From Candidatus Cloacimonadota bacterium (GTDB lineage: Bacteria; UBA4055), in NCBI GenBank assembly GCA_002742935.1, contig PDON01000060.1:1-64000 (forward strand): DNA of 64,000 nucleotides, read 5' to 3'. Position 1 is the stretch's first letter. Each line of letters begins with the position of its first letter. The notes under the pieces are model-generated. The model had not been told where the DNA came from. It saw only the letters and a list, made by a program, of their open reading frames with translations, and made no database searches. A program made the position numbers and the translations under genes. Below are positions 13,278 through 49,033 of the stretch, piece after piece.

Positions 13278-13286
13278 AACAGACTC

Positions 13287-15026: not shown

Positions 15027-15935
15027 ATTAACAAAAAAAAGATATTAATATTGGGGAAACTAAGTATAACTTTCATAATTATACTCCTACTGGTCAATAA
15101 TGTTGATTTTGAGAAAATTGTTAAAAGCTTCGAACTATCCAATCAAAAATATATGATTTTAGCTATTCTTTTACTTCCTCTTAATATTTCCACACAAATT
15201 CTAAAATGGAAAACTGTAGTAAATTCAGTAGATAACACTATAAGTTTTAAAAAGATTATTTCATCATCGTTTATAGGTATAGCTCTTGGTTTCATAACAC
15301 CCGGAAAAACCGGAGAAATGGCTAAGTTTCTTCTTATAAACTCCCCCAAAAGAGTGGAAATTGCAGGAGGAACATTCTATGAGAAACTTTTGGATATGAT
15401 ATGGATCCCTCTGTTTGGGATAATCTCCTTGATTACAATTATTCCAAGAATAAGTAGTAACGAACTCTATGGAAGAGTAGTCTTACCACTGTTAATACTT
15501 ATTTCCATACCATTTTTAGGTTTAATAATATACAATATATTTAAATCAAAGATAAAAGAGAGTTATAGATTAACCTTAAATAAACTACTTGGCTTTTATA
15601 AAATAGCCGGAAGAAAACAGTTTTTTAAACTATCCCTTCTCTCCCTAATGCTGTATTTAATTTATACTCTCCAACTATCGTTGATTATAAAATCTATGAG
15701 TGAGACTACCATATTAACCGCTATAAATATATCAATCTTTTCCATTTTAATAAAATCACTCTTACCTATAAGTTTTGGAGATATTGGAGTAAGGGAGGGA
15801 GCAACAGCTTTTACAATGACACTTTTTAACCTACCTTTCGAAATAGGAGTTTTAGCAGGATTTTTACTTTTTACCACAAATGTTATTATACCGTCAACTA
15901 TTGGGGTTATAATACTCTTAAAAGGGAAAAATTGA
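15027..15935 (+). CDS. Lysylphosphatidylglycerol synthase TM region / UPF0104-like membrane protein
   Basis: TM-rich, 'ITPGKTGEMAKFLLI', 'PISFGDIGVREGATAFTMTLF'; AGGAGG at 15014-15019 suggests an ATT start at 15027 rather than TTG at 15051. Confidence 0.7.
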   Translation: MNKKKILILGKLSITFIIILLLVNNVDFEKIVKSFELSNQKYMILAILLLPLNISTQILKWKTVVNSVDNTISFKKIISSSFIGIALGFITPGKTGEMAKFLLINSPKRVEIAGGTFYEKLLDMIWIPLFGIISLITIIPRISSNELYGRVVLPLLILISIPFLGLIIYNIFKSKIKESYRLTLNKLLGFYKIAGRKQFFKLSLLSLMLYLIYTLQLSLIIKSMSETTILTAINISIFSILIKSLLPISFGDIGVREGATAFTMTLFNLPFEIGVLAGFLLFTTNVIIPSTIGVIILLKGKN

Positions 15936-30713: not shown

Positions 30714-30760
30714 CATGAATGTGTAATAAAAATGTTTAAAAAATCAATTTGAGGCTTAAA

Positions 30761-31375
30761 ATGAAGATAGTTTTTACGACAATACCAATGAAAGAATCTT
30801 TAACAGCTATGAAATATCCCGTTGTAGGGAATAGAAATTTAGAATATGACAGAGAGGTGCTTTTTCCTGTAAACTCCGTATTAGCTAAGAGTTTAAAAGA
30901 GAATGAAAGAGTTAAAATAGTTATGATACTTAATAATAATGGGTTTAGTGAGCAAAATGCAAAGAAATTTGAAATGGAACTTAAAGAGATAAATAAAAAT
31001 ATAAATGCAGATCTATCTTTTCATTATGCAATAGAAAATTTTGAAGAATCCAAGCAAACTCATGAAGCTCGTTTTAGGAAAATAATTGAGTTTTTAGAAG
31101 AGGATGCAGAAATTATTGCAGATATTACCTATGGACAAAAAACACTCCCATTAATACTATTTTCTGTTATGAATTTTGCAGAGAAATTTTTCAATAATGA
31201 TATACTGTATATTGTCTATGGAAAAGTTGAGTTTGAAAACAATAATATTTTAAAAAACAGTCAAAAATTGTACGATTTAACACCTCTTTATTACTTAAAT
31301 GCCTTAACATCTGCAATGGAAGCCCCAGATGGCAAGTCCGCCATAAAAATAGTTGATAATTTTTTTTCATTATAG
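30761..31375 (+). CDS. Stand-alone CARF-domain protein (TM1812-like)
   Basis: 'MKIVFTTIPM...', 'IIADITYGQKTLPLILFSVMNFAEKFFNNDILYIVYGKVEF', 'LYDLTPLYYLNAL'; GAGG precedes ATG 30761 (track start 30749 is TTG). Confidence 0.8.
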   Translation: MKIVFTTIPMKESLTAMKYPVVGNRNLEYDREVLFPVNSVLAKSLKENERVKIVMILNNNGFSEQNAKKFEMELKEINKNINADLSFHYAIENFEESKQTHEARFRKIIEFLEEDAEIIADITYGQKTLPLILFSVMNFAEKFFNNDILYIVYGKVEFENNNILKNSQKLYDLTPLYYLNALTSAMEAPDGKSAIKIVDNFFSL

Positions 31376-31395
31376 ATATATAGGTAAATAGTTTT

Positions 31396-32295
31396 ATGAT
31401 AAAAAAAGAGAGATATGAAGAAGAGATAGAAGAATTATCGGTTTTATTTTTCTCTTTTGATAAAATAGATAAGGGATTATCAAGAGAGCGGGAAAAAGTA
31501 AAACTAAAACTTTGGATTGTATTGTGGAACTACTATAAATCAATTTATACCGATAAAAAAATTGAGTTATACAGTGGAGTTATAAACGAAACTATAGCAA
31601 ACTGTTTTATCTCTTATAAAATAGATTCAGAAACACCGTTTTTATATTATACGAACTCCGCTATAAAAAAAGAGATAGAAAGAGAAAGCCAAAAGGATAG
31701 TTATAAAGGTATTAAAATCCCTCAAAAAACAGAAAAAAATGGAAGAAGATTAAAGAAATTAGCAAAACAAAAAGGATTAACAGAAGATTATCAAATAGTT
31801 GACTTAGGTAAGAGTTTAGGCTTAGAAATAGATGATATTCAAGAAGCAATTGATTTTAACAAAACCAAATCAAACTTAACTATTTCTGATAATTATAAGA
31901 GTGATAAATGTGAAGAAATTTCAATAATTGATAAAGTAGCATATGAAAAGTATACACCTGAAAATATTTTTGAAAATAGGGAAAATTGTTTAAATATATT
32001 GGAAGTTATTGAAAGCACTTTCTTGAAGAAACAACATAGGGTACAAAAATACTTATCAGCTTTATTAACTTTCTATTTTTTTGATGACTTGATCTCTTTA
32101 GAAAATAAAGAGATAGAGCTTACTTATAAGTTTATTGATAAAGTTCTATTTAATGAACTTAATAGTTTAAGCTATAACCATTCTCTTCCAAATCAAAAAG
32201 ATATAGCAAAAAGATTTGGGAAGGATAAAACAGATGCAAGTAGAACATTAAGAAAATTTTTAAATGAGATAAAAAGTGTCAACTCATTAGGTTAA
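31396..32295 (+). CDS. Divergent sigma-70-like transcription factor
   Basis: Region-2-like 'FLYYTNSAIKKEIERE', region-3-like 'GIKIPQKTEKNGRRLKKLAKQKG..DLGKSLGLEIDDIQEAI..LTISDNYKSDKCEEISIIDKV', region-4-like HTH 'LPNQKDIAKRFGKDKTDASRTLRKFL'. Confidence 0.65.
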   Translation: MIKKERYEEEIEELSVLFFSFDKIDKGLSREREKVKLKLWIVLWNYYKSIYTDKKIELYSGVINETIANCFISYKIDSETPFLYYTNSAIKKEIERESQKDSYKGIKIPQKTEKNGRRLKKLAKQKGLTEDYQIVDLGKSLGLEIDDIQEAIDFNKTKSNLTISDNYKSDKCEEISIIDKVAYEKYTPENIFENRENCLNILEVIESTFLKKQHRVQKYLSALLTFYFFDDLISLENKEIELTYKFIDKVLFNELNSLSYNHSLPNQKDIAKRFGKDKTDASRTLRKFLNEIKSVNSLG

Positions 32296-32343: not shown

Positions 32344-33048
32344 ATGTTTGATATTTCAAAGTTTACAGTAGAGAAGGCAAGACCAATCCCCGTTATTTTA
32401 TTGCTTGATGTTAGTGGAAGTATGAGTGGGGAAAAAATAGCACAGCTCAACAAAGCTGTTGCAGATATGCTTCAAGAATTTAAAACAGGGGGTGCACTAG
32501 AAACTGAAATTCAAATGTCAGTCATTACTTTCGGAGGTGATGTAAAACTTGCTTTACCACTAATCTCAGCATCAAATATCTCTACTATTCATCCTCTTAT
32601 AGCTAATGGAGGAACCCCTATGGGAACTGCTTTAAGGATGGCAAAAGAAATGATTGAAGATAAAGAAATCATTCCTTCAAAAGGATATAGACCAACAGTT
32701 GTGCTTATTTCAGATGGAGCTCCTACTGATAATTGGAAAGAACCTATGAATGCTTTTATCTCTTCAGGTCGTTCTTCAAAGTGCGATAGAATGGCAATGT
32801 CAATAGGAACAAGTCAAGATGATCCTGTGTTAAATCAATTTGTTACTGGGACAGAAAATAAAGTCTTCCTAGCTGAATATGCAAAAAATATCCCTCAATT
32901 CTTTAGAATGGTAACAATGAGTGTTAGTGTCCGTTCTCGTTCGCAAAATCCTAATAAATTAATTCCATTCAATGAAGTAAAAAAACTTACTGCTAAAACA
33001 AATTTAACAGAAGAAATTAAAGCTCTAAATGATTTTAGTGATTTTTAA
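32344..33048 (+). CDS. vWA domain protein, TerY-like
   Basis: MIDAS 'LLDVSGSMSGEKI', 'GGTPMGTAL', 'LISDGAPTDNW'. Confidence 0.9.
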   Translation: MFDISKFTVEKARPIPVILLLDVSGSMSGEKIAQLNKAVADMLQEFKTGGALETEIQMSVITFGGDVKLALPLISASNISTIHPLIANGGTPMGTALRMAKEMIEDKEIIPSKGYRPTVVLISDGAPTDNWKEPMNAFISSGRSSKCDRMAMSIGTSQDDPVLNQFVTGTENKVFLAEYAKNIPQFFRMVTMSVSVRSRSQNPNKLIPFNEVKKLTAKTNLTEEIKALNDFSDF

Positions 33049-33159: not shown

Positions 33160-33549
33160 ATGAAAATACATTTAATTATCGATAAATCTGATAGTATGAA
33201 AACTTTAGGAAAAGTTTCAATCGTAAAAAACCTCATTCGGACTATAAAAATTCTAAAAGAGACCAGATCTGTATATGAAACTTATAAGTTTTCTAAAATA
33301 GATTGGAATGGAAAGTTGGAAGATTTAGAAAAAATTGTTCTATCTGAGTCAATTGATAATGCTTTGATTTTTACAGATGGTTATATATGCAAACCTAAGA
33401 AACTCAGAGAGTTTATCGACAATAATAGAAAGAAAAAGTATATAATTGTATATTGTGGATGCGATGCTAGATATTCAAATAAGTTTGGATACCAATCTCA
33501 AGATATATTATTAGCTTTAAATACTGTGACTGATATATATGAAATATAG
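33160..33549 (+). CDS. Minimal vWA-like protein
   Basis: MIDAS-like 'LIIDKSDSMKTLGK', 'NALIFTDGYI', 129 aa. Confidence 0.65.
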   Translation: MKIHLIIDKSDSMKTLGKVSIVKNLIRTIKILKETRSVYETYKFSKIDWNGKLEDLEKIVLSESIDNALIFTDGYICKPKKLREFIDNNRKKKYIIVYCGCDARYSNKFGYQSQDILLALNTVTDIYEI

Positions 33550-34264
33550 ATCAAAAAAAAATTGGGGAGCATCTATCAAAGGTCCTTCTCATATTTTAAA
33601 TAATTTACCTAATCAAGATAGCTTTATAATTTCTAAAAGCTACAAAGGTGTAGTTGCTGTTGTTGCTGATGGTTTAGGAAGCAAGAGGCATTCAGAGAAA
33701 GGCTCAAAGCAAGCATGCATAGCTGTTCTTAAAGCAATAAAATGTTTAGAAAAAATTAGTAAGAAAAATAAACACACAAAAATACTAGATATTTTTCCTT
33801 TAATACATAAATATTGGGAAAAACCTTTAAAGCGTTATGGTGTGAAAAATTGTGCCTCTACTTGTCTTTTTACCTACATAACAACAAAACACATCTTGAC
33901 AGCAAGACTTGGTGACGGCATGATTTATCTATTAGGCAAACAAGGAAATAAAGACATTGTGATAAGCGATGATAAAGAAGAAAGTTTTTCTAATACTACT
34001 ATTAGTTTAGCCAGTAACAATGCCTTTAGTAGGTGGGATATCAAGATTTTAAGAACAAATCAAACGGAATCTATTATACTTTGCTCTGATGGGATTTCAA
34101 ACGATATAAAAGAAAATGCTTGGACTAATTTTGTAAAAGAACTTAGAAAAAAATCTTTAAAAAATAGCAGGAAAAAAAATATTAAGAATATTAAAGAGGT
34201 TTTGTTACAGTGGCCTGTAAAAGGTCATAGTGATGACAAAACTATTGTGTTTATAGAGGTGTAA
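33539..34264 (+). CDS. PP2C-family Ser/Thr protein phosphatase
   Basis: 'VVAVVADGLGSKRHSEKGSKQACIAVL', 'LTARLGDGMIYLL', 'IILCSDGISNDIKE', 'GHSDDKTIVFIEV'. Confidence 0.9.
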   Translation: MKYRSKKNWGASIKGPSHILNNLPNQDSFIISKSYKGVVAVVADGLGSKRHSEKGSKQACIAVLKAIKCLEKISKKNKHTKILDIFPLIHKYWEKPLKRYGVKNCASTCLFTYITTKHILTARLGDGMIYLLGKQGNKDIVISDDKEESFSNTTISLASNNAFSRWDIKILRTNQTESIILCSDGISNDIKENAWTNFVKELRKKSLKNSRKKNIKNIKEVLLQWPVKGHSDDKTIVFIEV

Positions 34265-34266
34265 CT

Positions 34267-35781
34267 ATGGAAGGTATAAGAGAGAATAGTATTAATTTAC
34301 CAAATATTGTAGAAGATGAATATTTGTATGAACATAGATTGAGTAAAAAGCTTGGAGAAGGAGGGCAAGGTTTAGTTTGTGCTACAGAGAATCCACTCAT
34401 TGTTGTCAAATTTGTTACAGATAGAAATGGGAATTTAATAAGTAAAACAAAAAACAAAGAACTTTTTGATAAATATAACACGAGATTTAATAATATTCGT
34501 TTGTTACCAGTTGATAGAAATATAGCAAAGCCAATAGCCTTGCTAAATGATTATGCAGGTTATATAATGCAATTTATGGAAGATATGATGCCTCTTAGTG
34601 TGTTAGAGATTCTAGACACTAATGAAAAAGCTCCAGCTTGGCTTGTTGGAAAAAATCCTTCGACAGAAAAACTTTCTACAGCACAACAAAGATTATTTGC
34701 TTATTGCAAAAACGGAGGACTACGACATAGGTTAGAAATATTAGGAAAAACTGCAAAGGTTTTATCTCAATTACATACTCAGGGTTTAGTATATTGTGAT
34801 ATTTCTCCAAATAATATTTTTATAACAAATGATATTGACTTTGAAAATCCTAATGTTTGGTTTATTGATGCAGATAATATTTCCTTTTCATCAGAAGATA
34901 TAACAAAAGGGAATACTGTTTTTACTCCTAGATATGTTGCTCCAGAAGTTTATACACAAAAAACTGTTTGTACTCAAGACTCTGATATTTATGCTTTTGC
35001 TTTAACTGCATTTGAAAAAATATCCCTTGTATATCCTTTCTCTGGAGAAATGACAAATTCAGATGATGACTGGGACGATTGGGATGAATCAACAAGCATA
35101 AATAACGCAGAAGATGATTTTATGGATCCTATGGAAAAAGCTTATAGAGGAGAGTTGGATTGGATTTGGCAAAAAGAATCAAACAATAAAAGTTCTGACG
35201 GATTACCTAAAGGATTAGTATTGACACCATCATTATACCAATTATTTAACTTGTGTTTTAGTAAAGGAAGACAACAAATAGAATTTAGACCTCCTATGAT
35301 TCTATGGCATAAAACTTTATTAGAGGCTAAAGATTTAACGATAAAATGCTCAAACTGTAAGATGTCGTGGTATTTCCCACAGCAAAAATCAATTTGTCCT
35401 TACTGCGATAATAAAGTAAAGAAAGTATTACTTATAAAAGAAATAGACAGAAATAAAGAAGAAAATCTTATTTTTGCACACGAAATAGAAGCTAATCAAA
35501 ATATTTTAATATCTAAACAGAGACTGGGATTTCCAAAATTTGATAAAACTGAAAATAGTTTATTGCAGATTAAATATCAAAATTCTGAAAAGGGAACTGA
35601 GATAGATTCATTTTTATTAAATCTAAGATTAGATGAAAAAGAAAAATGCAAAATTTCACAAAATAGGGAAGAACAAAGTATTACTCATCAAATAGAAATT
35701 TTAGCTAACGATTTTCTACTTGAAATTGAATTAAACAATAAAAAGAGAAAATTCAAATTTGAGGTAATAAAGGAGAATTAG
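34267..35781 (+). CDS. Ser/Thr protein kinase with C-terminal zinc ribbon
   Basis: 'KLGEGGQGLV', 'LHTQGLVYCDISPNNIFI', 'WFIDADNISF', 'YVAPEVYTQ', zinc ribbon 'CSNCKMSWYFPQQKSICPYCDNK'. Confidence 0.9.
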   Translation: MEGIRENSINLPNIVEDEYLYEHRLSKKLGEGGQGLVCATENPLIVVKFVTDRNGNLISKTKNKELFDKYNTRFNNIRLLPVDRNIAKPIALLNDYAGYIMQFMEDMMPLSVLEILDTNEKAPAWLVGKNPSTEKLSTAQQRLFAYCKNGGLRHRLEILGKTAKVLSQLHTQGLVYCDISPNNIFITNDIDFENPNVWFIDADNISFSSEDITKGNTVFTPRYVAPEVYTQKTVCTQDSDIYAFALTAFEKISLVYPFSGEMTNSDDDWDDWDESTSINNAEDDFMDPMEKAYRGELDWIWQKESNNKSSDGLPKGLVLTPSLYQLFNLCFSKGRQQIEFRPPMILWHKTLLEAKDLTIKCSNCKMSWYFPQQKSICPYCDNKVKKVLLIKEIDRNKEENLIFAHEIEANQNILISKQRLGFPKFDKTENSLLQIKYQNSEKGTEIDSFLLNLRLDEKEKCKISQNREEQSITHQIEILANDFLLEIELNNKKRKFKFEVIKEN

Positions 35782-35784: not shown

Positions 35785-38700
35785 ATGGAATTAAAAGATA
35801 TCAATATTCAAGATACTCTTATGGTAGAATGTAAGATTTTAAATAATTCAAAACTTTCAAAAGGAATAGGGAAAATTATACCAAATGATAGAACTTATAT
35901 ATTTAAAGGTGTTGAACTTTCTATATCTGATACTGCTAAAAAAAGAGATTTAGACTTTTATTTAAGCCGAGGAATAGCTCATTTAGCAGAAGTAGAAACT
36001 ATGTATAAAAATACCATAATTTTACGCTGTTGTTTTTTTGCAAATGAAATTATTGTTTTAAATGAAGATACTCATATTTATATAAATCCCGATAAAATTA
36101 AAAATAAGAAAGCAAAAAAAGATGATAAAAACTTAAACCAATATTTTGAAGAACTTGCAAAAAAATGTCATCTAATCTACTCATATAAAGATAATAAAGA
36201 AACATATTTTATTTTACAAGCTAACCCAGATATTTTTATTCCTGATGATGAAATAAATGAAGAGCTAAAACAGATTCAAGATGAAAACAATTTAGAAATT
36301 ACAAGTGAAAATGATGATAAAGCTACAAAAAAAAATGCAAAATTAAAATCAAAAATTCGTTCTGAAATGGAAAATGAAAATAAGCAAAAAATTGCCTTTT
36401 CAGTTTATGGAACAAATATTCGTATTGATGTAGAAAAATGGAAAACTGGTATAGGGTTTTCAGCGACTCGATTTGTTACAAGGAAGAATAAAAAGCAAGA
36501 ACCAAACTATATTTTAATAAAAGGGTGTTTAAAGTTTTCAAATGAAAAAACAGCAATTTCTGATTTTACCAAAAAAAAACTAGAAGAAATTAAAAAACAA
36601 TCTGGATCTTATCTTGATGCTTGGGATAAGTATGCAAATGAAAGGGGAGAAAATCTTTTAAAAAATGCACGAAATTTTGGGACTTTTAAAATAGAAAATA
36701 TAGAAATTGTATCTGAGACAAAAGATTCGTATAAATTATTTTTAAAAGAGTTTGATAAGCAAAAGCTTATTAATCATATGACTATTGATATTACTGATGA
36801 AGAGCCTCTTTTCCTTCGTAAAGAAGATTTGTCATGGTCTGAGTATTTAAATGAAAAACTCATAGAGGATAAGGATAAAAATAAAATATTGAAGGATATT
36901 TCAAAAGAAAAACAAGATGAAATAAAAAAGACTAAAAATTGTAAAATACAAACAAGTGATGGTAATTCAATTACGATTGAGTGTAAATATAATTTGTTGA
37001 AATTAAAGATTAAAAATTTATTAATCCACTTTTCTACATTTGGAGAAGAGGTGCAACTTAAAAGACAAAAAATAGCAAGAGAAGCTATTAATCAAGGAAG
37101 ATCAGGAATTCCATATCTTTCAATGTTACTCGAAGAAAAAGGTCAAATATTTCAATATCAAAAAATAGAAAATAAAAGGTTTAAAATTTCTACTAAAACT
37201 TTTGATAAAATTTTTAAGAATCCCCCTACTGATACACAAAGAGATGCTATTAAAATGGCTTTACAAACTCCTGATATAGCTTTAATCCAAGGACCTCCAG
37301 GGACAGGGAAAACCACTGTTATTAACGCTATTGTTGAAGAGTTAAATAATAGATATGATAAAAAAAATAATACAACAGGAGCAATTCTTTTATCTTCATA
37401 TCAACATGCCGCAGTTGAAAATATTATTGAAAGAGTACGCATAAACTCTCTTCCAACTCCAAAATTTGGTAAAAAGATAGATGGTGAAGAATATAGGGGT
37501 CATATTGAAAAGTGGACAAATGAACTTATAAATACAGTAAGAAAACAAAATCCTGAATTGAAATTTTCAGCTTATGATTTAGAGTTAAAATCTGCTTATG
37601 CAAAGTATAAAGTTGTTCCATCTCCAGCAAATAAAATTAGATTTTTAGATAAACTACTTCAAGAAATTTCATTGTCTAATGACTTAAGAAAAAAAATAGA
37701 TAAAGCACGAGAAGAGAGTCTGGAGCTCTCTTATTCTACAGATCAACTTTTATTACAAAAAATAAGAGCTTTACGAACTAATGAAGTTTCTTTTGCAGAT
37801 GACGGAAAAGAACGATGTAAAGATCTATTGTATGATTTGGAAAATGAAGAAAATAAAAAAGTTTTAGAGAAATATGCTTATTCTTCGGAACTTCCAAGTA
37901 ATAATGACCTACAAGCTTTACGAGGTTTAAAACAAGAACTATTGCATCAAGTTTTACCAAAACCTATGTATCTAAAGTTTGAAGTAGATAAAAATATTCA
38001 AGACCTATATGCTTTAGCACAAAAAGAAATTAAAATGAATAAGAGCAAACAGGATAAGACTCTTTTAACTCAATATGAATATTTGGAACATTTAGAATCA
38101 AACCCTATGGGGCTTAATACTGCAATTAATGATTGTTCTTTTGCTATTTCTGCAACAGCACAACAAGCTGAAGGAGGAGATCTTAAGAAATTTAAAAATC
38201 CTTTTTTCATAGATGATAAGACTTTAGAACTTTTTGACACTGTGATTATTGATGAAGCCGCTAGAGCTACCCCTCCGGATTTACTTATTCCTATGGCAAA
38301 AGCTCGTAAAAAAATTCTTTTGGTAGGAGATCATAGACAGTTGCCTCATTTAATAGATGAAGAGCTTGAAGAAAAAGTAATTGAAAGTGAGAAGAGGAGT
38401 AGTAAATCAGATGATTCAAACATAAAAGAGTACTATAATCTGAGTATGTTTGAACATATGTTTAAGCGTTTAAAGGAATTGGAAAAGAGCGATGGAATTA
38501 GACGAACTATAACACTTGATGCTCAATATCGTACGCATCCGTTATTGGGTAAATTTGCAAGTGATAACTTCTATGCAAAAAACAACGAAGCATTCAAGTC
38601 TCCAAGGCCTGCCGAAGATTTTTTTCACAATTTAGATCAGATTGAAAACAAAGCTTGTATATGGCTTGATGTATCTAAAAATTACGGCTTGGAAAGTCGT

Positions 38701-39138
38701 AGTGGTACCAGTTGGATTCGTAATGCAGAAATAATTAAAATAGTAGATTATCTTGAAAAATGGAAAAAATCTGAACAAGGCAAGAATTTAAGCTATGGTA
38801 TTATTACCTTTTATAAAGCTCAAAGTGATAAAATAAAAAAAGAGATTAAAAATCGGAAAATTGCAGAAAAAAATATAAAAGTTGGTACTGTTGACGCTTT
38901 CCAGGGTATGGAGTTTGATATAGTTTTTCTGTCGGCTGTTCGTTGTAACAAAAAGAAGCATTATGGATTTTTAACAATGGAAAACCGATTAAATGTTGCT
39001 GTTACAAGGCAGAAAAAAGCATTGGTTTTTGTAGGGGATTCAGAATTCTTAACAAGTGAAGATGCTCGTTTAGAAAGTAATATTCCTGCTATTGGAAATT
39101 TTTATGACTTGTGTAAAGAAAACGGGGTTATTTTATAG
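35785..39138 (+). CDS. UPF1/DNA2-like SF1 helicase with long N-terminal region
   Basis: Walker A 'IQGPPGTGKTTVINAI', motif II 'VIIDEAARATPPDLLIP', 'LVGDHRQLPHLI', 'LDAQYRTHPLLGKFASDNFY', 'GTVDAFQGMEFDIVFLSAVR', 'LNVAVTRQKKALVFVGD'. Confidence 0.92.
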   Translation: MELKDINIQDTLMVECKILNNSKLSKGIGKIIPNDRTYIFKGVELSISDTAKKRDLDFYLSRGIAHLAEVETMYKNTIILRCCFFANEIIVLNEDTHIYINPDKIKNKKAKKDDKNLNQYFEELAKKCHLIYSYKDNKETYFILQANPDIFIPDDEINEELKQIQDENNLEITSENDDKATKKNAKLKSKIRSEMENENKQKIAFSVYGTNIRIDVEKWKTGIGFSATRFVTRKNKKQEPNYILIKGCLKFSNEKTAISDFTKKKLEEIKKQSGSYLDAWDKYANERGENLLKNARNFGTFKIENIEIVSETKDSYKLFLKEFDKQKLINHMTIDITDEEPLFLRKEDLSWSEYLNEKLIEDKDKNKILKDISKEKQDEIKKTKNCKIQTSDGNSITIECKYNLLKLKIKNLLIHFSTFGEEVQLKRQKIAREAINQGRSGIPYLSMLLEEKGQIFQYQKIENKRFKISTKTFDKIFKNPPTDTQRDAIKMALQTPDIALIQGPPGTGKTTVINAIVEELNNRYDKKNNTTGAILLSSYQHAAVENIIERVRINSLPTPKFGKKIDGEEYRGHIEKWTNELINTVRKQNPELKFSAYDLELKSAYAKYKVVPSPANKIRFLDKLLQEISLSNDLRKKIDKAREESLELSYSTDQLLLQKIRALRTNEVSFADDGKERCKDLLYDLENEENKKVLEKYAYSSELPSNNDLQALRGLKQELLHQVLPKPMYLKFEVDKNIQDLYALAQKEIKMNKSKQDKTLLTQYEYLEHLESNPMGLNTAINDCSFAISATAQQAEGGDLKKFKNPFFIDDKTLELFDTVIIDEAARATPPDLLIPMAKARKKILLVGDHRQLPHLIDEELEEKVIESEKRSSKSDDSNIKEYYNLSMFEHMFKRLKELEKSDGIRRTITLDAQYRTHPLLGKFASDNFYAKNNEAFKSPRPAEDFFHNLDQIENKACIWLDVSKNYGLESRSGTSWIRNAEIIKIVDYLEKWKKSEQGKNLSYGIITFYKAQSDKIKKEIKNRKIAEKNIKVGTVDAFQGMEFDIVFLSAVRCNKKKHYGFLTMENRLNVAVTRQKKALVFVGDSEFLTSEDARLESNIPAIGNFYDLCKENGVIL

Positions 39139-39149: not shown

Positions 39150-41291
39150 ATGGATAACAAAATTAAAGAAGCAGAAGATTTTATCATTTATGATTATAAA
39201 ATTCCATTTTCAACACGATTGCAAAAACAGTTTTTTTGGCCTGTATATCGATACAAGGTTTCTATCAGTGGATTTAGCTTTGGAGTCTTAAATTTATTTG
39301 AATATTTCATGTTAAAATTTATTGCATCTGCAGGCAAGGATAAGTTAAAGTTGAAAAGTTTGACAGGAATGCAGGAAGATTTAATTGACTTTTTGCAACA
39401 AAAACTTACAAATAAAGGATATTTAGATGATAATTTTTATATAAATAAAAAAGGTTTGAGTATTCTATCTGAAATCGATGAAAAAGAAAATGAAGAAAAT
39501 TTAGATCGAGAACCTTATTTTTTCTATATTTATATTGATTCTTTTACAAAAAATATTTTACCAGTTATAATACCTATTGAAGAAGAGAAGGTTATTCAAT
39601 CAACTATTACGCAAGAAGGTAAGAGTTTAATTGTTTTTGAAAAACAGAGTTCTGTAGGAAAGCAAAACGAGAATGATACTAAAAAGATTTGGGCCTTTGA
39701 TTTTCCACAAAATTATAACTCCGATATAAATAAAGAAGAGGTTGAGCAACTTGTTATAAAGTCAATGAAAGATGGAAAGATTCCATATCAAGAGAACTTT
39801 AAAGTAGAAACAATAGAAGAAAGTGCTGAAAAAGTATATCTTGCAGTTCACTTTATTTTACAAGAAGGAAATACTAAGAAATGGTTGATAACAGAAGGTT
39901 TTTCTAGTGATTTTAGTACGATTTTTAACCCTGAATATTTAAATGATGCCGGTAAAGAAGAAGTTACAAAGTCTAGAGACTATATGATTCATAAGTCACT
40001 GAATATTCCTGATAAAATACAGGAAACAATGCCAAATGATATTGTAGAGAAATTAACTCCTTACTATCAATACCCACAAATTTTTGAAAAATTAAAACAA
40101 ATTGAAATATCCAAAGCTGGACTTGATAAAATTGGTAAAATCGATACAAGTGATAAACAGGAAGAATCTAAAAATAAAAAGAAAGATTTAATTAGTAATT
40201 TGTATCAGGTTATGGAATGGTCTTTTTTTCATTCTGCAAAAAATATTCAAGGGAAAAATAGTATCTTAAAAGAACTTAAAAATAAATCACCACTTGAAAT
40301 TAAAGATAAATCTTTAAAAATAATGAAAAAGCACAAACTTGATATTATAGAAAAATATAAAAACAATCTTAAAGTTAAATATGGGAGTATAGAGTATAGT
40401 TTAAAGGAGGATAGTGATAAACAACTAATACCTTTATTAGTATTTCATATTATAGCTGAATCTGAAAGATTTATAATACTGATGAATAAAAATCCTCAAC
40501 TAATAAATGACTTTATTCTTTTTACATATTTAAGAAATCCAGCCGAGCACAATGAGAATATAAATATAAAACAAGAACAAATTGATTTGTATTATGATAC
40601 TTGTTACAGTGTTTTAGAGTTTCTATTTCCTACCTTAAAAAGCAGTAAGGATATTATAAGTAAAAATTTTTATTTCTTTACAGAAACCGAAAGCCAAATT
40701 CATAAAAAGAGGTTCATGGCTCAAAAAGTTGTTGAAGAAAAATTAGGTTTCGGTTTGCAAAATAAATTAGCTCCTGATATATATCAGGATATGGTAAATA
40801 TAGAAAAATTTTTTATTAATTCAGATCAGAATAATATCAATCCAAATATAATAAAAAATCTATATAATATCTTTGATAAGATATTTATGCATATAAATCA
40901 AAATATATCAACTCCACAAAAAATTATAAAGGTTAATGAATGTCTTGAAAAAGCAAATAGTGTTGGATTTGATGTGGATAGAAATGAACTTAAATCATTT
41001 GAAAGGATAAATAAAGAGCGGTTACAAAAGGCTGTTGAAAATAAGCCTGTAAGTTTACAATCTTCATTCTTGGTGTTTTTATTCAAGATAGACAAAAAGA
41101 TTCTTAGAAAAATCTCAAAAGAAATGTCAAATTTATTATTTATCATAAATAATATTTCAAACCTACGAGGGCATGGAGATATTTTAATAATAAAGCAAAA
41201 AAAAGGAGCATTACTTCAAAACACAATTAGGGATGCTCATATTTTATTATATGATTTTACTAAGAAAGCATACAATTTAAATATAATATAA
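39150..41291 (+). CDS. 713-aa uncharacterised protein; possible N-terminal wHTH and a HEPN-like RNxxxH motif
   Basis: 'LRNPAEHNENINI' (R462-N-P-A-E-H467) in a helical context; N-terminal 'FGVLNLFEYFMLKFIAS...LIDFLQQKLTNKGYLDDNFYINKKGLSIL'. Confidence 0.5.
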   Translation: MDNKIKEAEDFIIYDYKIPFSTRLQKQFFWPVYRYKVSISGFSFGVLNLFEYFMLKFIASAGKDKLKLKSLTGMQEDLIDFLQQKLTNKGYLDDNFYINKKGLSILSEIDEKENEENLDREPYFFYIYIDSFTKNILPVIIPIEEEKVIQSTITQEGKSLIVFEKQSSVGKQNENDTKKIWAFDFPQNYNSDINKEEVEQLVIKSMKDGKIPYQENFKVETIEESAEKVYLAVHFILQEGNTKKWLITEGFSSDFSTIFNPEYLNDAGKEEVTKSRDYMIHKSLNIPDKIQETMPNDIVEKLTPYYQYPQIFEKLKQIEISKAGLDKIGKIDTSDKQEESKNKKKDLISNLYQVMEWSFFHSAKNIQGKNSILKELKNKSPLEIKDKSLKIMKKHKLDIIEKYKNNLKVKYGSIEYSLKEDSDKQLIPLLVFHIIAESERFIILMNKNPQLINDFILFTYLRNPAEHNENINIKQEQIDLYYDTCYSVLEFLFPTLKSSKDIISKNFYFFTETESQIHKKRFMAQKVVEEKLGFGLQNKLAPDIYQDMVNIEKFFINSDQNNINPNIIKNLYNIFDKIFMHINQNISTPQKIIKVNECLEKANSVGFDVDRNELKSFERINKERLQKAVENKPVSLQSSFLVFLFKIDKKILRKISKEMSNLLFIINNISNLRGHGDILIIKQKKGALLQNTIRDAHILLYDFTKKAYNLNII

Positions 41292-41355: not shown

Positions 41356-44079
41356 ATGAGTTTTAATCTTTTTACTAATATTGCTAAAAAACGGGAAGCA
41401 GTAGCTGAACTTGAAAAACAAAGTCAGGAAACAATGAAGGAACTGCAAAATTTCTTTAATGAGAATTTACAAAATTATAAAAATAAAGTTCAGGCAGAAA
41501 TTGAACAAATGCACAGACTGGATACTCAAAAGATATCCGATTTCAATGAAATGATAGAACATTATAATAATAATATTCAAGAACTAATTTCTGAGAGAAT
41601 GAAGAACTTTGATAAAGTTCTTTTAAACTACAACAAACAAATAGAGCAGTTAAGTCAAGAAATAGAGATATTGCAGAGTGATAAAGTAAATATCATTAAG
41701 CAAAGTCAAGAAGAAATTCACAAATTACGCAATGATACATTAGCTCAAACAGAAGCTCGTCTAAAAGAGGAATATGAGAATCTTCATAAGCAACAAGATG
41801 AATTAGCTAGATTACAGAGTGAATATAAAGTAATGAAACAAAACTTTGATCTAGAGCAACAAAAGTTGCAGGCAGACCAAAAAAGATTGGAAGATTATTC
41901 TGAGAAGCTAAATCAAGAACGATTAGATATTGATAAAACAGTATTGGAAAAAATTAAAACAGAGAAACAGAATTTACTTGACTATGAAAAAAGAGTTCGA
42001 GATAAAGAGGCTGATATCCAAAATCAAGTTCTTAAAGAAACAAAGCTCGAAAGAGAAAGACTTTCAGATTATGAAAAGACACTTAATGAAAAAGAGAGTA
42101 TTATAAATGAGCAAGTTTTAGCTGCAACTGATACGGAAAGAAGAAGACTTTCAGAATATTTAAAAGAATTAGTCAATAAAGAAAATGCTATAAACCAAAC
42201 AGTACTGACTGAAACAGATCTTGAACGAAAACGACTTGAGCAATATTCTAAGGAATTAATTGAAAAGGAAGCTAATATCAAAAATACCATAGATAAAGAA
42301 ACTGAGTTTGAAAAGCAAAGACTATCAGATCTTGAAGAGAAGTTAAACAGTCGCGAAGAGTATCTAAATGATAGAGAAACCAATCTTGAAGAGATTATTG
42401 AAGAAAAGACTCAAGAAAGGGTGGAAAATAGAAAAAATGAAATGGAAGCAACTCTTAATAGGGCTAAAGAGGATATAAAATATTTTTCAGAAAAGACTCA
42501 AGGTTATGAAAAATTGGAGCAGCTATATCAAGAAATGTATAATACTGTTGGAAAAGATCCTGCTTCTATTATGAAACAATTGGCAGAAAAAAACGAAACC
42601 ATTCGTCAATTGAGAGAGGAATTAATTAATCGCCCAACAAAAGAGATGGAAGAGGAATATAGAAGATTAACCGATAAGAAAGAGAAAATAAATGAGATAC
42701 ATAAAAGAGTGAAGGAAAAAGAAGGAGAGTATAACTTTACTTTTTCAGAAAATGCCGATTTGAAAACTCAGATTGAACCGTTAAAAAGTCAAATTGATAG
42801 CCTTGAAAAAGAACTTGCAAGATACAGAGATATACACCAAACTGAGGCAAATCGTGATGAAAGAATAAAAGAGATAGAAAAACCTTTAGTTAATTTTTCT
42901 AATAAAATAATAGATAATGAAGAAGATGTTTGTGAAATGGATTGGTTAAATGATATAGATAGCGGTATAAGAAAATTTGGATTGATTTTCCCAAAGCGTA
43001 TTTTATATGCATTTCATACAGCACTTAAATGTGGAGAAATCTCTCCTCTTACGGTCTTAGCTGGTGTAAGTGGCACAGGGAAATCAGAATTACCTAGATT
43101 GTATTCACATTTTGGAGGTTTAAATTTTTTAAGTTTACCTGTTCAGCCTAACTGGGATAGTCAAGAATCAATGCTTGGATATTTTAATTCCATTGACAAT
43201 CGTTTTGATGCACAAGATATTTTACGCTTATTAGTTCAGACCCAAAAAGATGACAATCTAAAAGAAGCTATAACGCTTATCTTGCTTGATGAGATGAATT
43301 TAGCAAATGTAGAATTATACTTTTCTGATTTTTTAAGTAAATTAGAAACTCGTCGTGGAATTTCTGATGATAAACTTCCTTCAATAGCAGTAAAGCTTGG
43401 TTCTGGATTAGATGATTATCAAATTCCACTTGGAAGAAATGTTCTATGGACAGGAACAATGAATCAAGACGAAACAACAAAAACTCTTTCTGATAAGGTG
43501 TTAGATCGTGGAATTGTTATAAATTTTCCAAGCCCTAATAACTTGAGAAGTAGGAAGATAACTAATACCTTACCTAAAGATAGATCCTTATTACGCCGTA
43601 GTGTATGGAACAGGTGGATAAAGAAGTCTACACCAGAAAATATTAGTAAAAGTATGGATTCGTATAGAAATATTATTGAAGGTATAAACTCTGACATAGG
43701 AAAAGCTGGACGAGCTATAGGTCACCGAGTATGGCAATCTATCGAAAGCTACATTAATAACTATCCTACAGTAATTTCCAATTTAGAAAATGAAGAAGAT
43801 TTGAAAAAAGCAATGGATAATGCTTTTGCAGATCAATTAGTTCAAAAAATAATGCCTAAATTACGCGGTTTAGAAGTTGAAGGTATACAGGGTGATTGCC
43901 TAAAATCTGTTCAATCAAAAATTTCAAATTATGGTTTAGACGAAGACTTTAAAAATGCAATGGAATTAGGCTATGGACAATTTATGTGGAATACATCTAA
44001 CTATGCTTTAGACTCCAATAATCAAGATTCAGAAGTAAATAAAACTGAAACCTCTGAACAATTAACAAATGAAGAATAG
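41356..44079 (+). CDS. Long coiled-coil protein with C-terminal McrB-like AAA+ ATPase
   Basis: Extended heptad region; Walker A 'LAGVSGTGKSELPRLYSHFGG', Walker B 'LILLDEMNLANVELYFSDFLSKLE', 'GTMNQDETTKTLSDKVLDR'. Confidence 0.88.
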   Translation: MSFNLFTNIAKKREAVAELEKQSQETMKELQNFFNENLQNYKNKVQAEIEQMHRLDTQKISDFNEMIEHYNNNIQELISERMKNFDKVLLNYNKQIEQLSQEIEILQSDKVNIIKQSQEEIHKLRNDTLAQTEARLKEEYENLHKQQDELARLQSEYKVMKQNFDLEQQKLQADQKRLEDYSEKLNQERLDIDKTVLEKIKTEKQNLLDYEKRVRDKEADIQNQVLKETKLERERLSDYEKTLNEKESIINEQVLAATDTERRRLSEYLKELVNKENAINQTVLTETDLERKRLEQYSKELIEKEANIKNTIDKETEFEKQRLSDLEEKLNSREEYLNDRETNLEEIIEEKTQERVENRKNEMEATLNRAKEDIKYFSEKTQGYEKLEQLYQEMYNTVGKDPASIMKQLAEKNETIRQLREELINRPTKEMEEEYRRLTDKKEKINEIHKRVKEKEGEYNFTFSENADLKTQIEPLKSQIDSLEKELARYRDIHQTEANRDERIKEIEKPLVNFSNKIIDNEEDVCEMDWLNDIDSGIRKFGLIFPKRILYAFHTALKCGEISPLTVLAGVSGTGKSELPRLYSHFGGLNFLSLPVQPNWDSQESMLGYFNSIDNRFDAQDILRLLVQTQKDDNLKEAITLILLDEMNLANVELYFSDFLSKLETRRGISDDKLPSIAVKLGSGLDDYQIPLGRNVLWTGTMNQDETTKTLSDKVLDRGIVINFPSPNNLRSRKITNTLPKDRSLLRRSVWNRWIKKSTPENISKSMDSYRNIIEGINSDIGKAGRAIGHRVWQSIESYINNYPTVISNLENEEDLKKAMDNAFADQLVQKIMPKLRGLEVEGIQGDCLKSVQSKISNYGLDEDFKNAMELGYGQFMWNTSNYALDSNNQDSEVNKTETSEQLTNEE

Positions 44080-44143: not shown

Positions 44144-47100
44144 ATGATTGAAATTAAAACAATAAAAGAATTTTATAAAGCTATAAGTGAGAAGAATGAA
44201 ATAGCTACTAATTTGCTTAGTTTACAAAACCAATATAATTATTTATTTAACTTTGATCCAATTAGTTTCAAAAATTTAGATTCAGATTTAGATACAATTA
44301 TTTATAAGAATATATTATTTCATCAACAAGGTTTGAATTCAGACAATATTGAAATACAAGATTATCTTTATAGACTATTTTTATTTGTCGAACCAGCATT
44401 AAAACACATTTTTAATATTATGCACCAAAAAATTTTACGAGAGCATTCTATGCAACATATTGGAAGAGTTCGTGAAATTGATGGGAAGTCAATTAGTTGG
44501 CTAAATAAACAACCAGGAAGAACTATAAAACAGAAAGCAAGTTTAACAGGTAGGATACTTGCTCCTCGCAGAATAATCAGTATAGATACAGCAGAAAATA
44601 GGTTGTTAAAAGCTTTTGTTTACAAACTTGATATGCTTTTGAGTATTCAGCAAAAAGCAACAAATAGTTATTCTCCAAAAACTAAATTTATTCGTAGATG
44701 GTTACAATCATCTGATGCTGAATTTATAGGGAAATGGAATAATACACCTCCAAACAACTCTCTTCTTTCTGATAAAAACTATAAAAGAATTTGGAAGGGG
44801 TGGATAGAACTACAACATATTGATAGAAGAATAAAAAATGATTTTGAAAATTTGGAAGAGATAAGAACGGCCATAGAATATATTGATTTTACTACAAAAA
44901 AGTATCAGTCAGAAAGATATAAGATAATTCAAAGACCTCTTCTAGGTGATAGAGATTTTAATTTTATAACACCGTTTGAAGATAATGACTTTAATTTAAA
45001 GAAAGAAATAACTATAAATAAAAAAGAAATAAACCCTGAAACAGAAAATAATACCTTAAAAACAGATTTATGTACAATTGATTTTGATAGTATAAAACCA
45101 AATATCTCTTTTTTATTAGATGATAGTTTAGAAGATATAAAAATACAAAAATTACCATTTATTTTATTGCAACAAATATGGAGATGGAAAGATAAAAATA
45201 ATAACAAAGATAAGGTTCAATATATTGACTGTGCTAATTCTCAAGGAATTCTTTTAAATGATGTAGAAAACAGTTTCCAAATTGAAAATTTTTCTATTCA
45301 TGATGCTTTAAACACAGAAAGGAAAGAAAATAAAAATCACATAACAGGAGTTTTAATAAAGAAATTATCTAAATATTTGCAGTGTTCAAAACTGATATAT
45401 TTCTTGCCATCTGAATTAGATGAATTTTCAAGTCAAATAATTAGAACAAATTTAAATCTTTATTTTTTTAATGCAGAACAAATTCCTAAAAGTATTGCTC
45501 AAATTATATTTATATTTGATGATGCAAAAGCAGAAGAGATCGAAGATAATATATTTTTTATTTTAAAAGAAGAAACTGACAGTAAAATCATATACACTCC
45601 AATAAAAGCTATAAAAAATAAAAAATATAGCTTAGATTTAAAAAAAATACTACAAAAACATAATGGTATTGTATGGGAAAGGCATCCAAATATTATAATC
45701 AATAAAAAAACTAATAAAAAAAAGAGTATTCAAAATAGATCTAAAATTTTAGATGAATTTATTAAAAGCATACCTGAAAAGGATTATCAATTCTTACCTA
45801 GAATAAAAGAGAGTTCAAATTTTCATAAAATAAAATCAAAAAATATTATAAAGCAAACAGAAAATACTAACTCTGAATTATTAAAAGACTTTCCAAAAGA
45901 ATTGGATAAGTATCAATACAAAAAAATAATTGAGATAAATGAAAATGATATTATGAAAGGTGGAATTCTCTTTGCAAAATATCAAAAAAAATTAGAAGAG
46001 TTAAAGTGCGATGCTCCATTATGGAAAGATCATTTACCTCCTTTAAAATTAAAAACTTTTGATTCAGAAATTCAACTTGTTGGAAATAAAACTTCAATTA
46101 TTCCAAAAAGAGGCATTGCAATACCTATTCCTATTGAAAGAGACTTCACCTTACCAGAAAAAAGTCCTTTTATAGAATTTGAACTTGAAAGAGGTGATGG
46201 AACACAAGAAGATCAATTTTTCGCTTACATTAAAGATGATAACTTTCCACTAGAAGAGGATATTGATTGTAAATTAAAGCTTACATATACTTATGGAGAT
46301 AGCAGTCCTTATAAGCTAGTTTTTATTCCAAGTAAACCTCAGCAAGAAAAAAAGTATGGAGTTTTTACTGTAGAATGGACAAAAAAAAGTCATATTGATT
46401 TAAGCTCTTTTCCTATTCCTAACTACCCTCCTATATATCAATGGAAAGATTTTTTTAACTATCCTGACTCTAATAAAGAGAAGGATTCTAATATTATTGA
46501 ATGGTTAGAAGCTGAATTTCTTAAGATTCAGAATGTTGTTGATTATGGTTGGAATATGTATAAAGTCTATAATAAAGGATCTAAAAAATTTATAAATATA
46601 AATCAAGAGTTTATATTTAATAATAGTCCTGAAGATGAAGCTATTATTTTTGATAAAGAAAACAGAATTCAATCAGGAGATTTAATAAAATGCTTTATTA
46701 TTGAAAATACTAAAAGAATATCGAGGCATCACAGTAAATTTATTGCACAAAATTTTTATAAGATAGATTCTGAAGAAGAATCTTACAAATGTTTTCTAAA
46801 AAGATCTTTAAGATTCCCAATATTTATATTATGGAATAATACTTTTAGTATTGATAATGAAGATGTTTCTCTAGAATTTAAAGAAAAATGTCTTACTGCT
46901 ATTGAAAATGCAGAAAATATTATAAGTGATGATAGTATGCCCAATTTTATGAAAGATGAAATGAGAATGTTTTTAAGTGCTTTGCATAAAGATACGCCTC
47001 AATCAAATATTCAATTTTTAAATTCTTGTATTGATGATGATAAACTTTTTATAGAATATTATAGAAGAATTGCATTTGCAGTAAGCGATTGTTCTGAAAA

Positions 47101-47611
47101 CTGGCAAGAAGAACTTTTAGAAAAAGTTTTAGTAAAATTAGAAGAAGTAACATTTGAAAATAAACAGATAGTTGAATATACAATGCGTATTTTAACAATT
47201 TCGGTATGGAGATATGAAAAATTTATTAATAAATTCCATCTTGAAGAAATAGACCTTTTATTAAAAAATATTTCTATTAGTTGGAATGAATTCATCAATA
47301 ATCAATCACGAAATAAAAAAGATTTAGGACAACAAAGATTAAGTGCATCTCTTTTTATTGAATTACTTATAGCTTTATTAAGACTTAGAACCAAAAAGGA
47401 ATTCCAAAATATTTTTTCACCTTATTCCAATCAAATAAAAAAGTTATATAGTCAATTAAATAAAATAAAAGAAAAAGAAATAACGCTAAATACAAGAATT
47501 AAGTTTAAAAATGATAAAAATGAAGAGATAGATATCCTAGATTATACAATGGAGTATTTACTGGGTGTAGTAAAAGATACTTCTATAAAGATATCTTCTG
47601 TATCAGAATAA
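44144..47611 (+). CDS. 1155-aa protein with DUF2357-like N-terminal region, likely partner of the McrB-like ATPase
   Basis: 'RGRILAPRRIISIDTAENRLLKAFVYKLDMLL'-type signature ('TGRILAPRRIISIDTAENRLLKAFVYKL'). Confidence 0.55.
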   Translation: MIEIKTIKEFYKAISEKNEIATNLLSLQNQYNYLFNFDPISFKNLDSDLDTIIYKNILFHQQGLNSDNIEIQDYLYRLFLFVEPALKHIFNIMHQKILREHSMQHIGRVREIDGKSISWLNKQPGRTIKQKASLTGRILAPRRIISIDTAENRLLKAFVYKLDMLLSIQQKATNSYSPKTKFIRRWLQSSDAEFIGKWNNTPPNNSLLSDKNYKRIWKGWIELQHIDRRIKNDFENLEEIRTAIEYIDFTTKKYQSERYKIIQRPLLGDRDFNFITPFEDNDFNLKKEITINKKEINPETENNTLKTDLCTIDFDSIKPNISFLLDDSLEDIKIQKLPFILLQQIWRWKDKNNNKDKVQYIDCANSQGILLNDVENSFQIENFSIHDALNTERKENKNHITGVLIKKLSKYLQCSKLIYFLPSELDEFSSQIIRTNLNLYFFNAEQIPKSIAQIIFIFDDAKAEEIEDNIFFILKEETDSKIIYTPIKAIKNKKYSLDLKKILQKHNGIVWERHPNIIINKKTNKKKSIQNRSKILDEFIKSIPEKDYQFLPRIKESSNFHKIKSKNIIKQTENTNSELLKDFPKELDKYQYKKIIEINENDIMKGGILFAKYQKKLEELKCDAPLWKDHLPPLKLKTFDSEIQLVGNKTSIIPKRGIAIPIPIERDFTLPEKSPFIEFELERGDGTQEDQFFAYIKDDNFPLEEDIDCKLKLTYTYGDSSPYKLVFIPSKPQQEKKYGVFTVEWTKKSHIDLSSFPIPNYPPIYQWKDFFNYPDSNKEKDSNIIEWLEAEFLKIQNVVDYGWNMYKVYNKGSKKFININQEFIFNNSPEDEAIIFDKENRIQSGDLIKCFIIENTKRISRHHSKFIAQNFYKIDSEEESYKCFLKRSLRFPIFILWNNTFSIDNEDVSLEFKEKCLTAIENAENIISDDSMPNFMKDEMRMFLSALHKDTPQSNIQFLNSCIDDDKLFIEYYRRIAFAVSDCSENWQEELLEKVLVKLEEVTFENKQIVEYTMRILTISVWRYEKFINKFHLEEIDLLLKNISISWNEFINNQSRNKKDLGQQRLSASLFIELLIALLRLRTKKEFQNIFSPYSNQIKKLYSQLNKIKEKEITLNTRIKFKNDKNEEIDILDYTMEYLLGVVKDTSIKISSVSE

Positions 47612-47627: not shown

Positions 47628-48761
47628 ATGAGTAGAACCCCAAAACTTATTATTTGTACCGTAGGAACTTCAATTGCTAATGGTTGTCCAACTCAAAAAG
47701 ACCTATTTGAATCTCAAGCAGATTGGGATGATGATGATTCTATAATAAAAAAAGAGTTAAAAATCAAAATAGATAAAGAACTTCCTAAATTAAATATAGA
47801 AACAAAAGAATTTAGAAAATTAAGTGCAGAATTAAATACTTTAGATAGATTAAAATTAACTGAAAATGATAGAGTTGAGCTTATAAGTAGTGATAACTTA
47901 CTTGGAAAGGTTTGCAGTGAAAAGTTAAAAGAAATTATTAGTGTAGCTTATAATATGAATTCTACTCAAATAAATATTCATAAAATAGAAAAATTACAAA
48001 TCAAGAATATACAAGAATTACGAAAAACGGGAATAAAAAATCTAATTTCTACAGTTATAAATATATTAGAGGATAGTATGTATTCTCATGATATTATTTT
48101 TAATCCTGTTGGAGGTTATAAATTTATAAATCCTTTTATGACTATATTAGCTATGCTTTATGGAAAACGGAGTATTTATTTATTTGAATATTCTCAAGAA
48201 TTATTAAGTATCCCTGCTTTACCTATTACTTTTGATTTAAAAGTTTTTGAAAGAGCAAAGCCTGTTTTGGATAAGATAAAAAAAGATACAGCTATAAAAA
48301 AAGAAGAATATTTAAGTTTAATTCCTAATCTATCAGAATCTGAAAAAAATCTATTCTTATCATTTACAGAGTCTTGTGAATATAATTTCGTAACTTTATC
48401 TCCATTAGCTTTTGTATTCTTAGAATTAGAAAAATCAAAAAAAATACTAAAAATAAATTCTAAAGCTAAAAAACAACTTGAAGAATTGAAAAAAAATGAA
48501 AAAGCCCAATCAATTATCAATATATTGCAAAAAGCTCAAAATCCAATTTGGCTACATAACAACTTAGATAGTTGGAGTACAACAGATATTTTAAATCTAA
48601 AATGTAAGGATACAGGACAAAGAATATTTTGTTTTCTAGAAAATAAATCTCTAAGAATAATTTATATATGCAAGAATCATAAAGAATATGAAAGAATTGG
48701 AAATGAATTCAAAAAAATAAATTTTAAAAATGAAGAGTTTGAAGATTTAACAATTCCCTAA
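47628..48761 (+). CDS. Csm6/Csx1-like CARF protein with RelE-like C-terminal domain
   Basis: CARF: 'PKLIICTVGTSIANGC', 'RVELISSDNLLGKVCSEKLKEII', 'DIIFNPVGGYKFINPFMTILAMLYGKRSIYLFEYSQELLSIPALPI'; C-term 'KAQNPIWLHNNLDSWSTTDILNLKCKDTGQRIFCFLENKSLRIIYICKNHKEYERI'. Confidence 0.75.
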   Translation: MSRTPKLIICTVGTSIANGCPTQKDLFESQADWDDDDSIIKKELKIKIDKELPKLNIETKEFRKLSAELNTLDRLKLTENDRVELISSDNLLGKVCSEKLKEIISVAYNMNSTQINIHKIEKLQIKNIQELRKTGIKNLISTVINILEDSMYSHDIIFNPVGGYKFINPFMTILAMLYGKRSIYLFEYSQELLSIPALPITFDLKVFERAKPVLDKIKKDTAIKKEEYLSLIPNLSESEKNLFLSFTESCEYNFVTLSPLAFVFLELEKSKKILKINSKAKKQLEELKKNEKAQSIINILQKAQNPIWLHNNLDSWSTTDILNLKCKDTGQRIFCFLENKSLRIIYICKNHKEYERIGNEFKKINFKNEEFEDLTIP

Positions 48762-48958: not shown

Positions 48959-48961
48959 CAT

Positions 48962-49033
48962 GCCTTCTCGCGGAATTGAACCACGGACACAGGGATTTTC
49001 AGTCCCTTGCTCTACCGACTGAGCTAAGAAGGC
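48962..49033 (-). tRNA. tRNA-Phe (anticodon GAA)
   Basis: Reverse complement GCCTTCTTAGCTCAGTCGGTAGAGCAAGGGACTGAAAATCCCTGTGTCCGTGGTTCAATTCCGCGAGAAGGC folds as a cloverleaf; anticodon loop CTGAAAA. Confidence 0.96.

Follow-up and report, generated by a model that had tools for sequence, protein, structure and literature searches.

A type III-A CoCoNuT operon of a Candidatus Cloacimonadota bacterium that closes with a gene for a Cami1-type CARF-RelE protein

A CoCoNuT operon beside a tRNA gene

The stretch of DNA that we analysed (hereafter the window; 64,000 nucleotides, positions 1 to 64,000 of contig PDON01000060.1) contains an island with an operon of eleven plus-strand genes that starts at position 30749 and spans 18 kb. 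Its gene order is CARF, sigma-like, VWA, VWA, PP2C, kinase, CnuH, CnuE, CnuB, CnuC and, as the last gene, one encoding a CARF domain joined to a RelE-like domain (CARF-RelE). The genes of the operon and the tRNA gene that follows it are:

30749..31375, + strand: stand-alone CARF2 protein (TM1812-type), 208 aa, first gene of the operon (PADLOC CARF2--CARF, 2.7e-75)
31396..32295, + strand: divergent sigma-70-like protein, a weak assignment (NCBIfam SigBFG, 9.8e-7, far below the cut-off of that model)
32344..33048, + strand: TerY-like VWA protein with the motif DVSGS (Pfam VWA)
33160..33549, + strand: shorter second VWA-like protein with the motif DKSDS, in the position of VWA2 of plasmid III-A CoCoNuTs
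33539..34264, + strand: PP2C phosphatase of the TerY-P triad (Pfam PP2C_2, 2.5e-38)
34267..35781, + strand: Ser/Thr kinase of the TerY-P triad, with two C-terminal CxxC pairs (361, 377)
35785..39138, + strand: cnuH, UPF1-like SF1 helicase, 1117 aa (Pfam AAA_11/AAA_12)
39150..41291, + strand: cnuE, effector, 713 aa, with HEPN motifs RNPAEH (462) and RGH (673)
41356..44079, + strand: cnuB, McrB-like GTPase, 907 aa, with Walker A GVSGTGKS (570) and NxD motif MNQDE (702)
44144..47611, + strand: cnuC, DUF2357 McrC-like protein, 1155 aa (Pfam DUF2357, 2.8e-14)
47628..48761, + strand: CARF-(wHTH-like)-RelE protein of the Cami1 type, 377 aa, ATG start
48961..49033, - strand: tRNA-Phe, the right border of the island (ARAGORN), 200 bp downstream of the CARF-RelE gene

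Intergenic gaps within the operon range from -11 to 111 nt, the gap from cnuC to the CARF-RelE gene being 16 nt, and the next gene follows after 392 nt; the CARF-RelE gene would thus probably be transcribed together with the genes before it. An earlier note on this DNA had placed this gene at the end of an island and outside a CRISPR locus, and both statements are borne out. The tRNA-Phe gene closes the island on the right, and the G+C content is 24-32% in the island vs 31-34% in the flanks. No cas genes were seen in the window between about 17.4 and 56 kb, and a direct-repeat search of the whole window revealed no CRISPR array. An att-site repeat derived from tRNA-Phe was considered and rejected, as the left border is without any repeat of 12 bp or more. 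Repeats of other kinds lie elsewhere in the window: a run of 9-bp ATAACAGTA repeats at 20510-20635, which is 3'-terminal in a large sensor-kinase-like ORF and encodes N/S repeats, and two adjacent near-identical blocks of 64 and 68 nt at 3059-3382, with a repeat spacing of 195-196 bp.

Based on the sequences of its genes, we assign the operon to the type III-A CoCoNuTs, most of whose tested hallmarks it carries. A TerY-P triad with a duplicated VWA gene is present, the UPF1-like CnuH lies upstream of CnuE, and the RNPAEH and RGH motifs of CnuE correspond, at the motif level, to the type III-A pattern (RxxxxH with a C-terminal RxH). CnuB has a long N-terminus rich in E, K, Q and L, read as a coiled coil from SMC-like matches and composition. 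CnuC was found to have no CxxC zinc ribbon and no match to a nuclease family; the CoCoNuT survey describes type III-A CnuC as a DUF2357 protein without PD-(D/E)xK or a zinc ribbon, but with Hsp70-like and cold-shock domains (PMC11090510).

Plasmid CoCoNuTs of Klebsiella michiganensis, Caballeronia and Photobacterium damselae share the core order of the window operon, which begins with the VWA genes and closes with the DUF2357 gene. The CnuH proteins of the window and Klebsiella are 34% identical over their full length, the window CnuB is 42-45% identical to CnuB of plasmid CoCoNuTs, the first VWA protein is 55-60% identical to VWA1 of plasmid III-A CoCoNuTs, and CnuC aligns piecewise with CnuC of plasmid CoCoNuTs. 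Twelve other genomes of the phylum were also searched for CnuE, and all of them were without it.

The two genes at the start of the operon (30749-32295) may constitute a CARF-controlled sigma module. The identification of the second of these (31396-32295) as a sigma factor is weak, and when it was combined with its Treponema relative in a profile, no PDB sigma factor was matched. The same pair is adjacent on plasmid pTS2 of Treponema saccharophilum, where it lies ahead of other genes and its members are 45% (CARF2) and 26% (sigma-like) identical to those in the window.

The CARF-RelE protein and its conserved residues

The reading frame of the CARF-RelE gene lies exactly where the earlier note had put it, the motifs quoted there (CTVGTSIANG, SSDNLLGK, NPVGGYKFINPFMTIL, EYSQELLSIPALPI and QRIFCFLENKSLRIIYICKNHKEYERI) all occur in the translation, and the reverse strand of 47628-48761 has stops throughout. 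The protein comprises a CARF domain (residues ~1-200), a linker (~204-276) and a RelE domain (~278-363). The assignment of the N-terminal ~200 residues to CARF, also made in the note, agrees with Pfam (Cas_APE2256, 74 bits vs a cut-off of 24.8) and with the PADLOC model CARF7--CARF_RelE, which matched residues 6-363 with an E value of 5.2e-46. In a sequence comparison with the PDB, residues 8-361 matched Cami1 (8phb, 1.8e-28), to which the window protein is 26% identical. Based on these three scores the match is far beyond chance, and by sequence and predicted fold we assign the gene to the known Cami1/CARF-RelE family. Its CARF domain is of the APE2256/Crn1 type (CARF7), not of the RtcR type.

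An AF2 model built from an alignment of 24 sequences (pLDDT 86.8, pTM 0.79) had as its four best structural matches apo and ribosome-bound Cami1, all over the full length (E values of 4.1e-21 to 9.1e-20). Crn1-type ring nucleases were the next matches, and RelE/YoeB toxins matched the C-terminus of the model more weakly (Foldseek probability 1.00, E values of 4e-3 and above, TMt ~0.5-0.77). Searched alone as a profile of eight sequences, with Cami1-like relatives among the eight, the C-terminal ~85 residues had Cami1 as their only PDB match (4e-17). The proposal that the C-terminus is RelE-like rather than HEPN was tested by these fold and profile comparisons and by its conserved residues, and the fold is indeed RelE-like; the HEPN C-terminus of Csm6/Csx1 is thereby ruled out. 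A RelE toxin-antitoxin module was also rejected as there is no partner antitoxin gene, the neighbors being cnuC and a predicted metal-transport gene 392 nt downstream. Between the CARF and RelE domains, residues 204-276 have in the AF2 model the predicted order of helices and strands of a winged helix-turn-helix. This middle segment had not been described in the earlier note. Nor had that note recognized that CARF-RelE proteins are a known family, that the gene belongs to a CoCoNuT operon, or that its genome bin contains a Csm module (below).

Four residues, S15, E68, K165 and R332, are invariant in the 24 aligned family members; H351 is kept in 22 of these, and the position of K325 is occupied by K or R in nearly all. 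The first three align with S12, E70 and K167 of SyCsm6, a CARF-RelE protein in which they are named for ring-nuclease activity and ligand binding and in which the K167A change left cA4 activity no longer removed (PMC9676260). Judged by this alignment, the ring-nuclease and ligand-binding residues of the window protein are fully kept. The PDB entry 8phj contains Cami1 with cA4 and the 70S ribosome, and its chain differs from that of 8phb at the counterparts of S15 and H351, both of which are alanine; this we read as a deliberate double mutant for trapping the state bound to cA4 and the ribosome. Cami1 is reportedly a cA4-activated mRNA interferase that acts in the A site. The window protein is likewise predicted to cut mRNA on ribosomes upon sensing a cyclic nucleotide alarm of the CRISPR kind, and the earlier reading of it as a nucleotide-gated mRNA interferase is supported by its predicted fold and residues.

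The intact ring-nuclease residues would also fit a quite different role, in which the protein removes cyclic oligoadenylate so that signaling by the host Csm system spares the island, or is reset by it, with a RelE domain that is weak or inactive. Crn1-type ring nucleases being the next structural matches is consistent with such a role. RelE enzymes need ribosomes, however, and for this reason a negative assay on naked RNA says little about the toxin domain. It is in this light that we view the finding that SyCsm6 degraded cA4 but, assayed in vitro with ribosomes absent, did not act as an RNase (PMC9676260). Since almost every relative retains R332 and H351, and since the nearest protein of solved structure was captured in its ribosome-bound state, we regard a role mainly in damping the signal as very improbable.

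Relatives of the window protein and their gene neighborhoods

A scan with the family alignment, using one genome per species, identified 80 CARF-RelE loci, whereas a scan of genome contigs with the single protein had found no relative. A type III core gene or Cas6 gene was detected nearby in 61 of the 80 loci with a limited BLAST panel; the remaining 19 include short contigs and cases missed by the panel. One such case is a Verrucomicrobia MAG (L014), in which ORFs read by eye as Cas10 and RAMP proteins directly precede the CARF-RelE gene and the contig has a match to the Cas10 palm ~7 kb from that gene. The family is therefore mainly CRISPR-linked in this sample, and the two relatives considered next need not be its sole exceptions.

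In a tree of 28 rows the window protein, which has a long end branch, groups with proteins of a Planctomycetota MAG (L012) and a Dysgonomonadaceae MAG (L013) at 97/95 support, and with L014 added at 100/99. Neither L012 nor L013 has visible cas genes nearby. In L012 (a 6-kb contig), the CARF-RelE gene adjoins genes for a CARF-D-ExK protein and an RtcR-type regulator. In L013 (a 10-kb contig), it is followed by a short VWA gene, PP2C and kinase, and upstream of it lie pieces with 27-48% identity to the EssC/FtsK-type extension found in the Caballeronia CoCoNuT. From these matching neighbors, the L013 gene sits where Caballeronia has its DUF1887 CARF nuclease, the CARF-nuclease effector position of extended III-A CoCoNuTs. 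A full CoCoNuT beside the L013 copy is likely; the window CnuH used as a query had no match in the genomes of L012, L013, L014 or L120.

Further sampling of 396 Bacteroidota genomes (weaker matches left out), 392 Planctomycetota genomes and 388 Verrucomicrobiota genomes found no additional CoCoNuT-linked CARF-RelE gene among the matches inspected. The Verrucomicrobiota sample yielded L120 and L121 and the Planctomycetota sample L112, all three beside type III genes, and a single group of L120, L121 and the window clade was neither favored nor rejected at a p-AU of 0.298. L120 has kinase, VWA, PP2C, CARF-RelE, Cas10 and RAMP genes in a row (~1751-15640), so that the TerY-P triad adjoins Cas10 and RAMP genes of a type III-D-like kind. 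A coiled-coil-like C-terminal extension of ~100 residues was observed on the CARF-RelE proteins of L012, L013, L014 and L120, while the window protein is without it. Viral contigs scanned with the CARF-RelE clade, CnuH, CARF2 and the sigma-like protein gave no matches. The arrangement of a complete CoCoNuT with CARF-RelE was found in one genome only.

Alternatively, the gene might be a passenger, or a Csm effector that was inserted by chance behind the CoCoNuT, and not be functionally linked to this operon. Its terminal position next to a tRNA gene, a potential insertion site, would fit this, as would the type III-A system and CARF effectors of the host and the usual role of family members as CRISPR accessories. 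Nevertheless, we consider this reading quite unlikely, based on its common strand with and 16-nt spacing from cnuC, on the L013 relative holding a slot normally filled by the CARF nuclease of III-A CoCoNuTs, and on the known occurrence of CARF effectors in CoCoNuTs of this type (PMC11090510).

Source of the signal and comparison with known systems

The genome bin of the window is a MAG that is 94.2% complete with 0.34% contamination, and a different contig of this MAG (C80, 541-14029) carries a type III-A Csm locus. Its Cas10 has an HD motif and an intact cyclase motif, FAGGDDLAL. The locus also encodes Csm2-Csm5, Cas6, an RT-Cas1 fusion and Cas2, along with Csx20, a Can2-like CARF nuclease and a CARF-adenosine deaminase; Csm2-5, Cas6 and Cas2 were assigned by ORF order and sequence, and the others also by PADLOC. 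A 204-aa protein of this locus resembles, by eye, a NUDIX hydrolase. Neither end of the contig showed a CRISPR array. Cas10 occurs in 4 of 13 genomes of the phylum and, among the clade relatives, Cas10 matches were found in the MAGs of L012 and L014. The L013 MAG had no Cas10 match, which is weak evidence as its completeness is unreported; that copy would have no Cas10-made ligand unless the MAG is incomplete.

Because the bin encodes a complete Csm module, whose Cas10 retains its cyclase motif, together with two further CARF effectors, cA4 could reach the window protein in trans, and we infer that a trans-acting Csm alarm is the simplest source of its ligand. A CBASS cyclase was rejected as the source based on the lack of a SMODS match in this genome, SMODS being the only cyclase family searched.

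The alternative is a ligand made independently of Cas10, either of the sort proposed for the CoCoNuT-linked RtcR-type CARF or a cyclic nucleotide from an unrecognized synthase. The location of the gene in a CoCoNuT operon, the two clade relatives outside visible cas genes and the L013 MAG without a Cas10 match are all consistent with this, as is the proposal of the survey that RtcR-like CARF proteins of CoCoNuTs sense RNA with cyclic ends (PMC11090510). However, the residues tied to binding and cutting of cyclic oligoadenylate are fully kept, the CARF domain is not of the RtcR type, a Cas10 is encoded in the genome itself, L014 as the next member of the clade directly follows type III genes, and no cyclase or other candidate synthase was recognized in the operon. 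We therefore think a Cas10-independent ligand unlikely. More specifically, the clade may have left type III CRISPR loci to become an exchangeable effector of type III-A CoCoNuTs that is triggered without Cas10, with the 3' end as its position in the window and the CARF-nuclease slot as its position in L013. We view this scenario as rather doubtful; if true, a Cas10-independent trigger would mean that CoCoNuTs have their own route of cyclic-nucleotide signaling.

Read from the sequence, the domain architecture, fold, conserved residues, operon position and Csm module in the bin point to an explanation that we favor with moderate confidence, namely that a Cami1-type effector was taken up by a CoCoNuT as its growth-arresting arm, with cA4 most likely supplied by the Csm system elsewhere in the genome. 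The CARF dimer would bind a cyclic oligoadenylate, most likely cA4, and binding would release the C-terminal RelE domain or position it on the ribosome, where it would cut mRNA in the A site and arrest translation. Slow cleavage of the ligand by the CARF domain would then reset the switch. CARF-RelE would in this way serve as a fail-safe of the type III-A CoCoNuT superoperon, with a type III-A Csm complex from another part of the genome as the likeliest maker of its cA4.

Since the CARF-RelE family is well established and its member Cami1 has been solved in complex with the ribosome, there is no novelty in the fusion as such. The novel element is its location, which is the 3' end of a type III-A CoCoNuT in the window and, for a sister copy, the effector slot of what is probably a second one. 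The survey likened CoCoNuTs to type III CRISPR on the grounds that some carry CARF proteins (PMC11090510). Two kinds of defense that had until now been compared only by analogy are linked here, as the CoCoNuT in the window carries a relative of a type III effector solved on the ribosome. The question of the CoCoNuT signal thereby becomes testable, since cA4 binding and growth arrest provide readouts for what a Cami1-type protein senses. The Csm module and two more CARF effectors in the same genome suggest that one alarm may be common to separate systems, and such cross-talk would alter how accessory effectors are assigned to loci.

Of the known systems, Cami1 (8phb, 8phj) is the closest to the window protein, with the same domain order over the full length and the same S15/E68/K165 and RelE R/H residues. 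It is usually found beside type III genes, whereas the window gene lies at the end of a CoCoNuT operon, and the cA4 activation and ribosome action of the window protein are predictions made at 26% identity. SyCsm6 (Sll7062) of Synechocystis has the same CARF7-RelE architecture with aligned ring-nuclease residues but, unlike the window gene, is encoded in a type III-D operon (PMC9676260). The type III-A CoCoNuTs, as described in the survey (Bell et al. 2024, PMC11090510), share with the window operon the NxD coiled-coil McrB, the UPF1-like helicase, the CnuE with RxxxxH and RxH, the DUF2357 protein and TerY-P with two VWA genes. The CARF effectors in the main text of the survey are either CARF-D-ExK proteins (Can1/Can2-like) or RtcR-like, and this main text makes no mention of CARF-RelE (PMC11090510). 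The window operon thus differs from the CoCoNuTs described there in that its effector is a RelE at the 3' end and in that a stand-alone CARF gene and a sigma-like gene stand at the 5' end in place of RtcR. The CARF-HEPN proteins Csm6 and Csx1 have the CARF sensor in common with the window protein, but its effector is RelE-like, not HEPN. Finally, the free RelE, YoeB and HigB toxins have the same C-terminal fold and are under antitoxin control, whereas the toxin domain in the window is fused to a CARF sensor.
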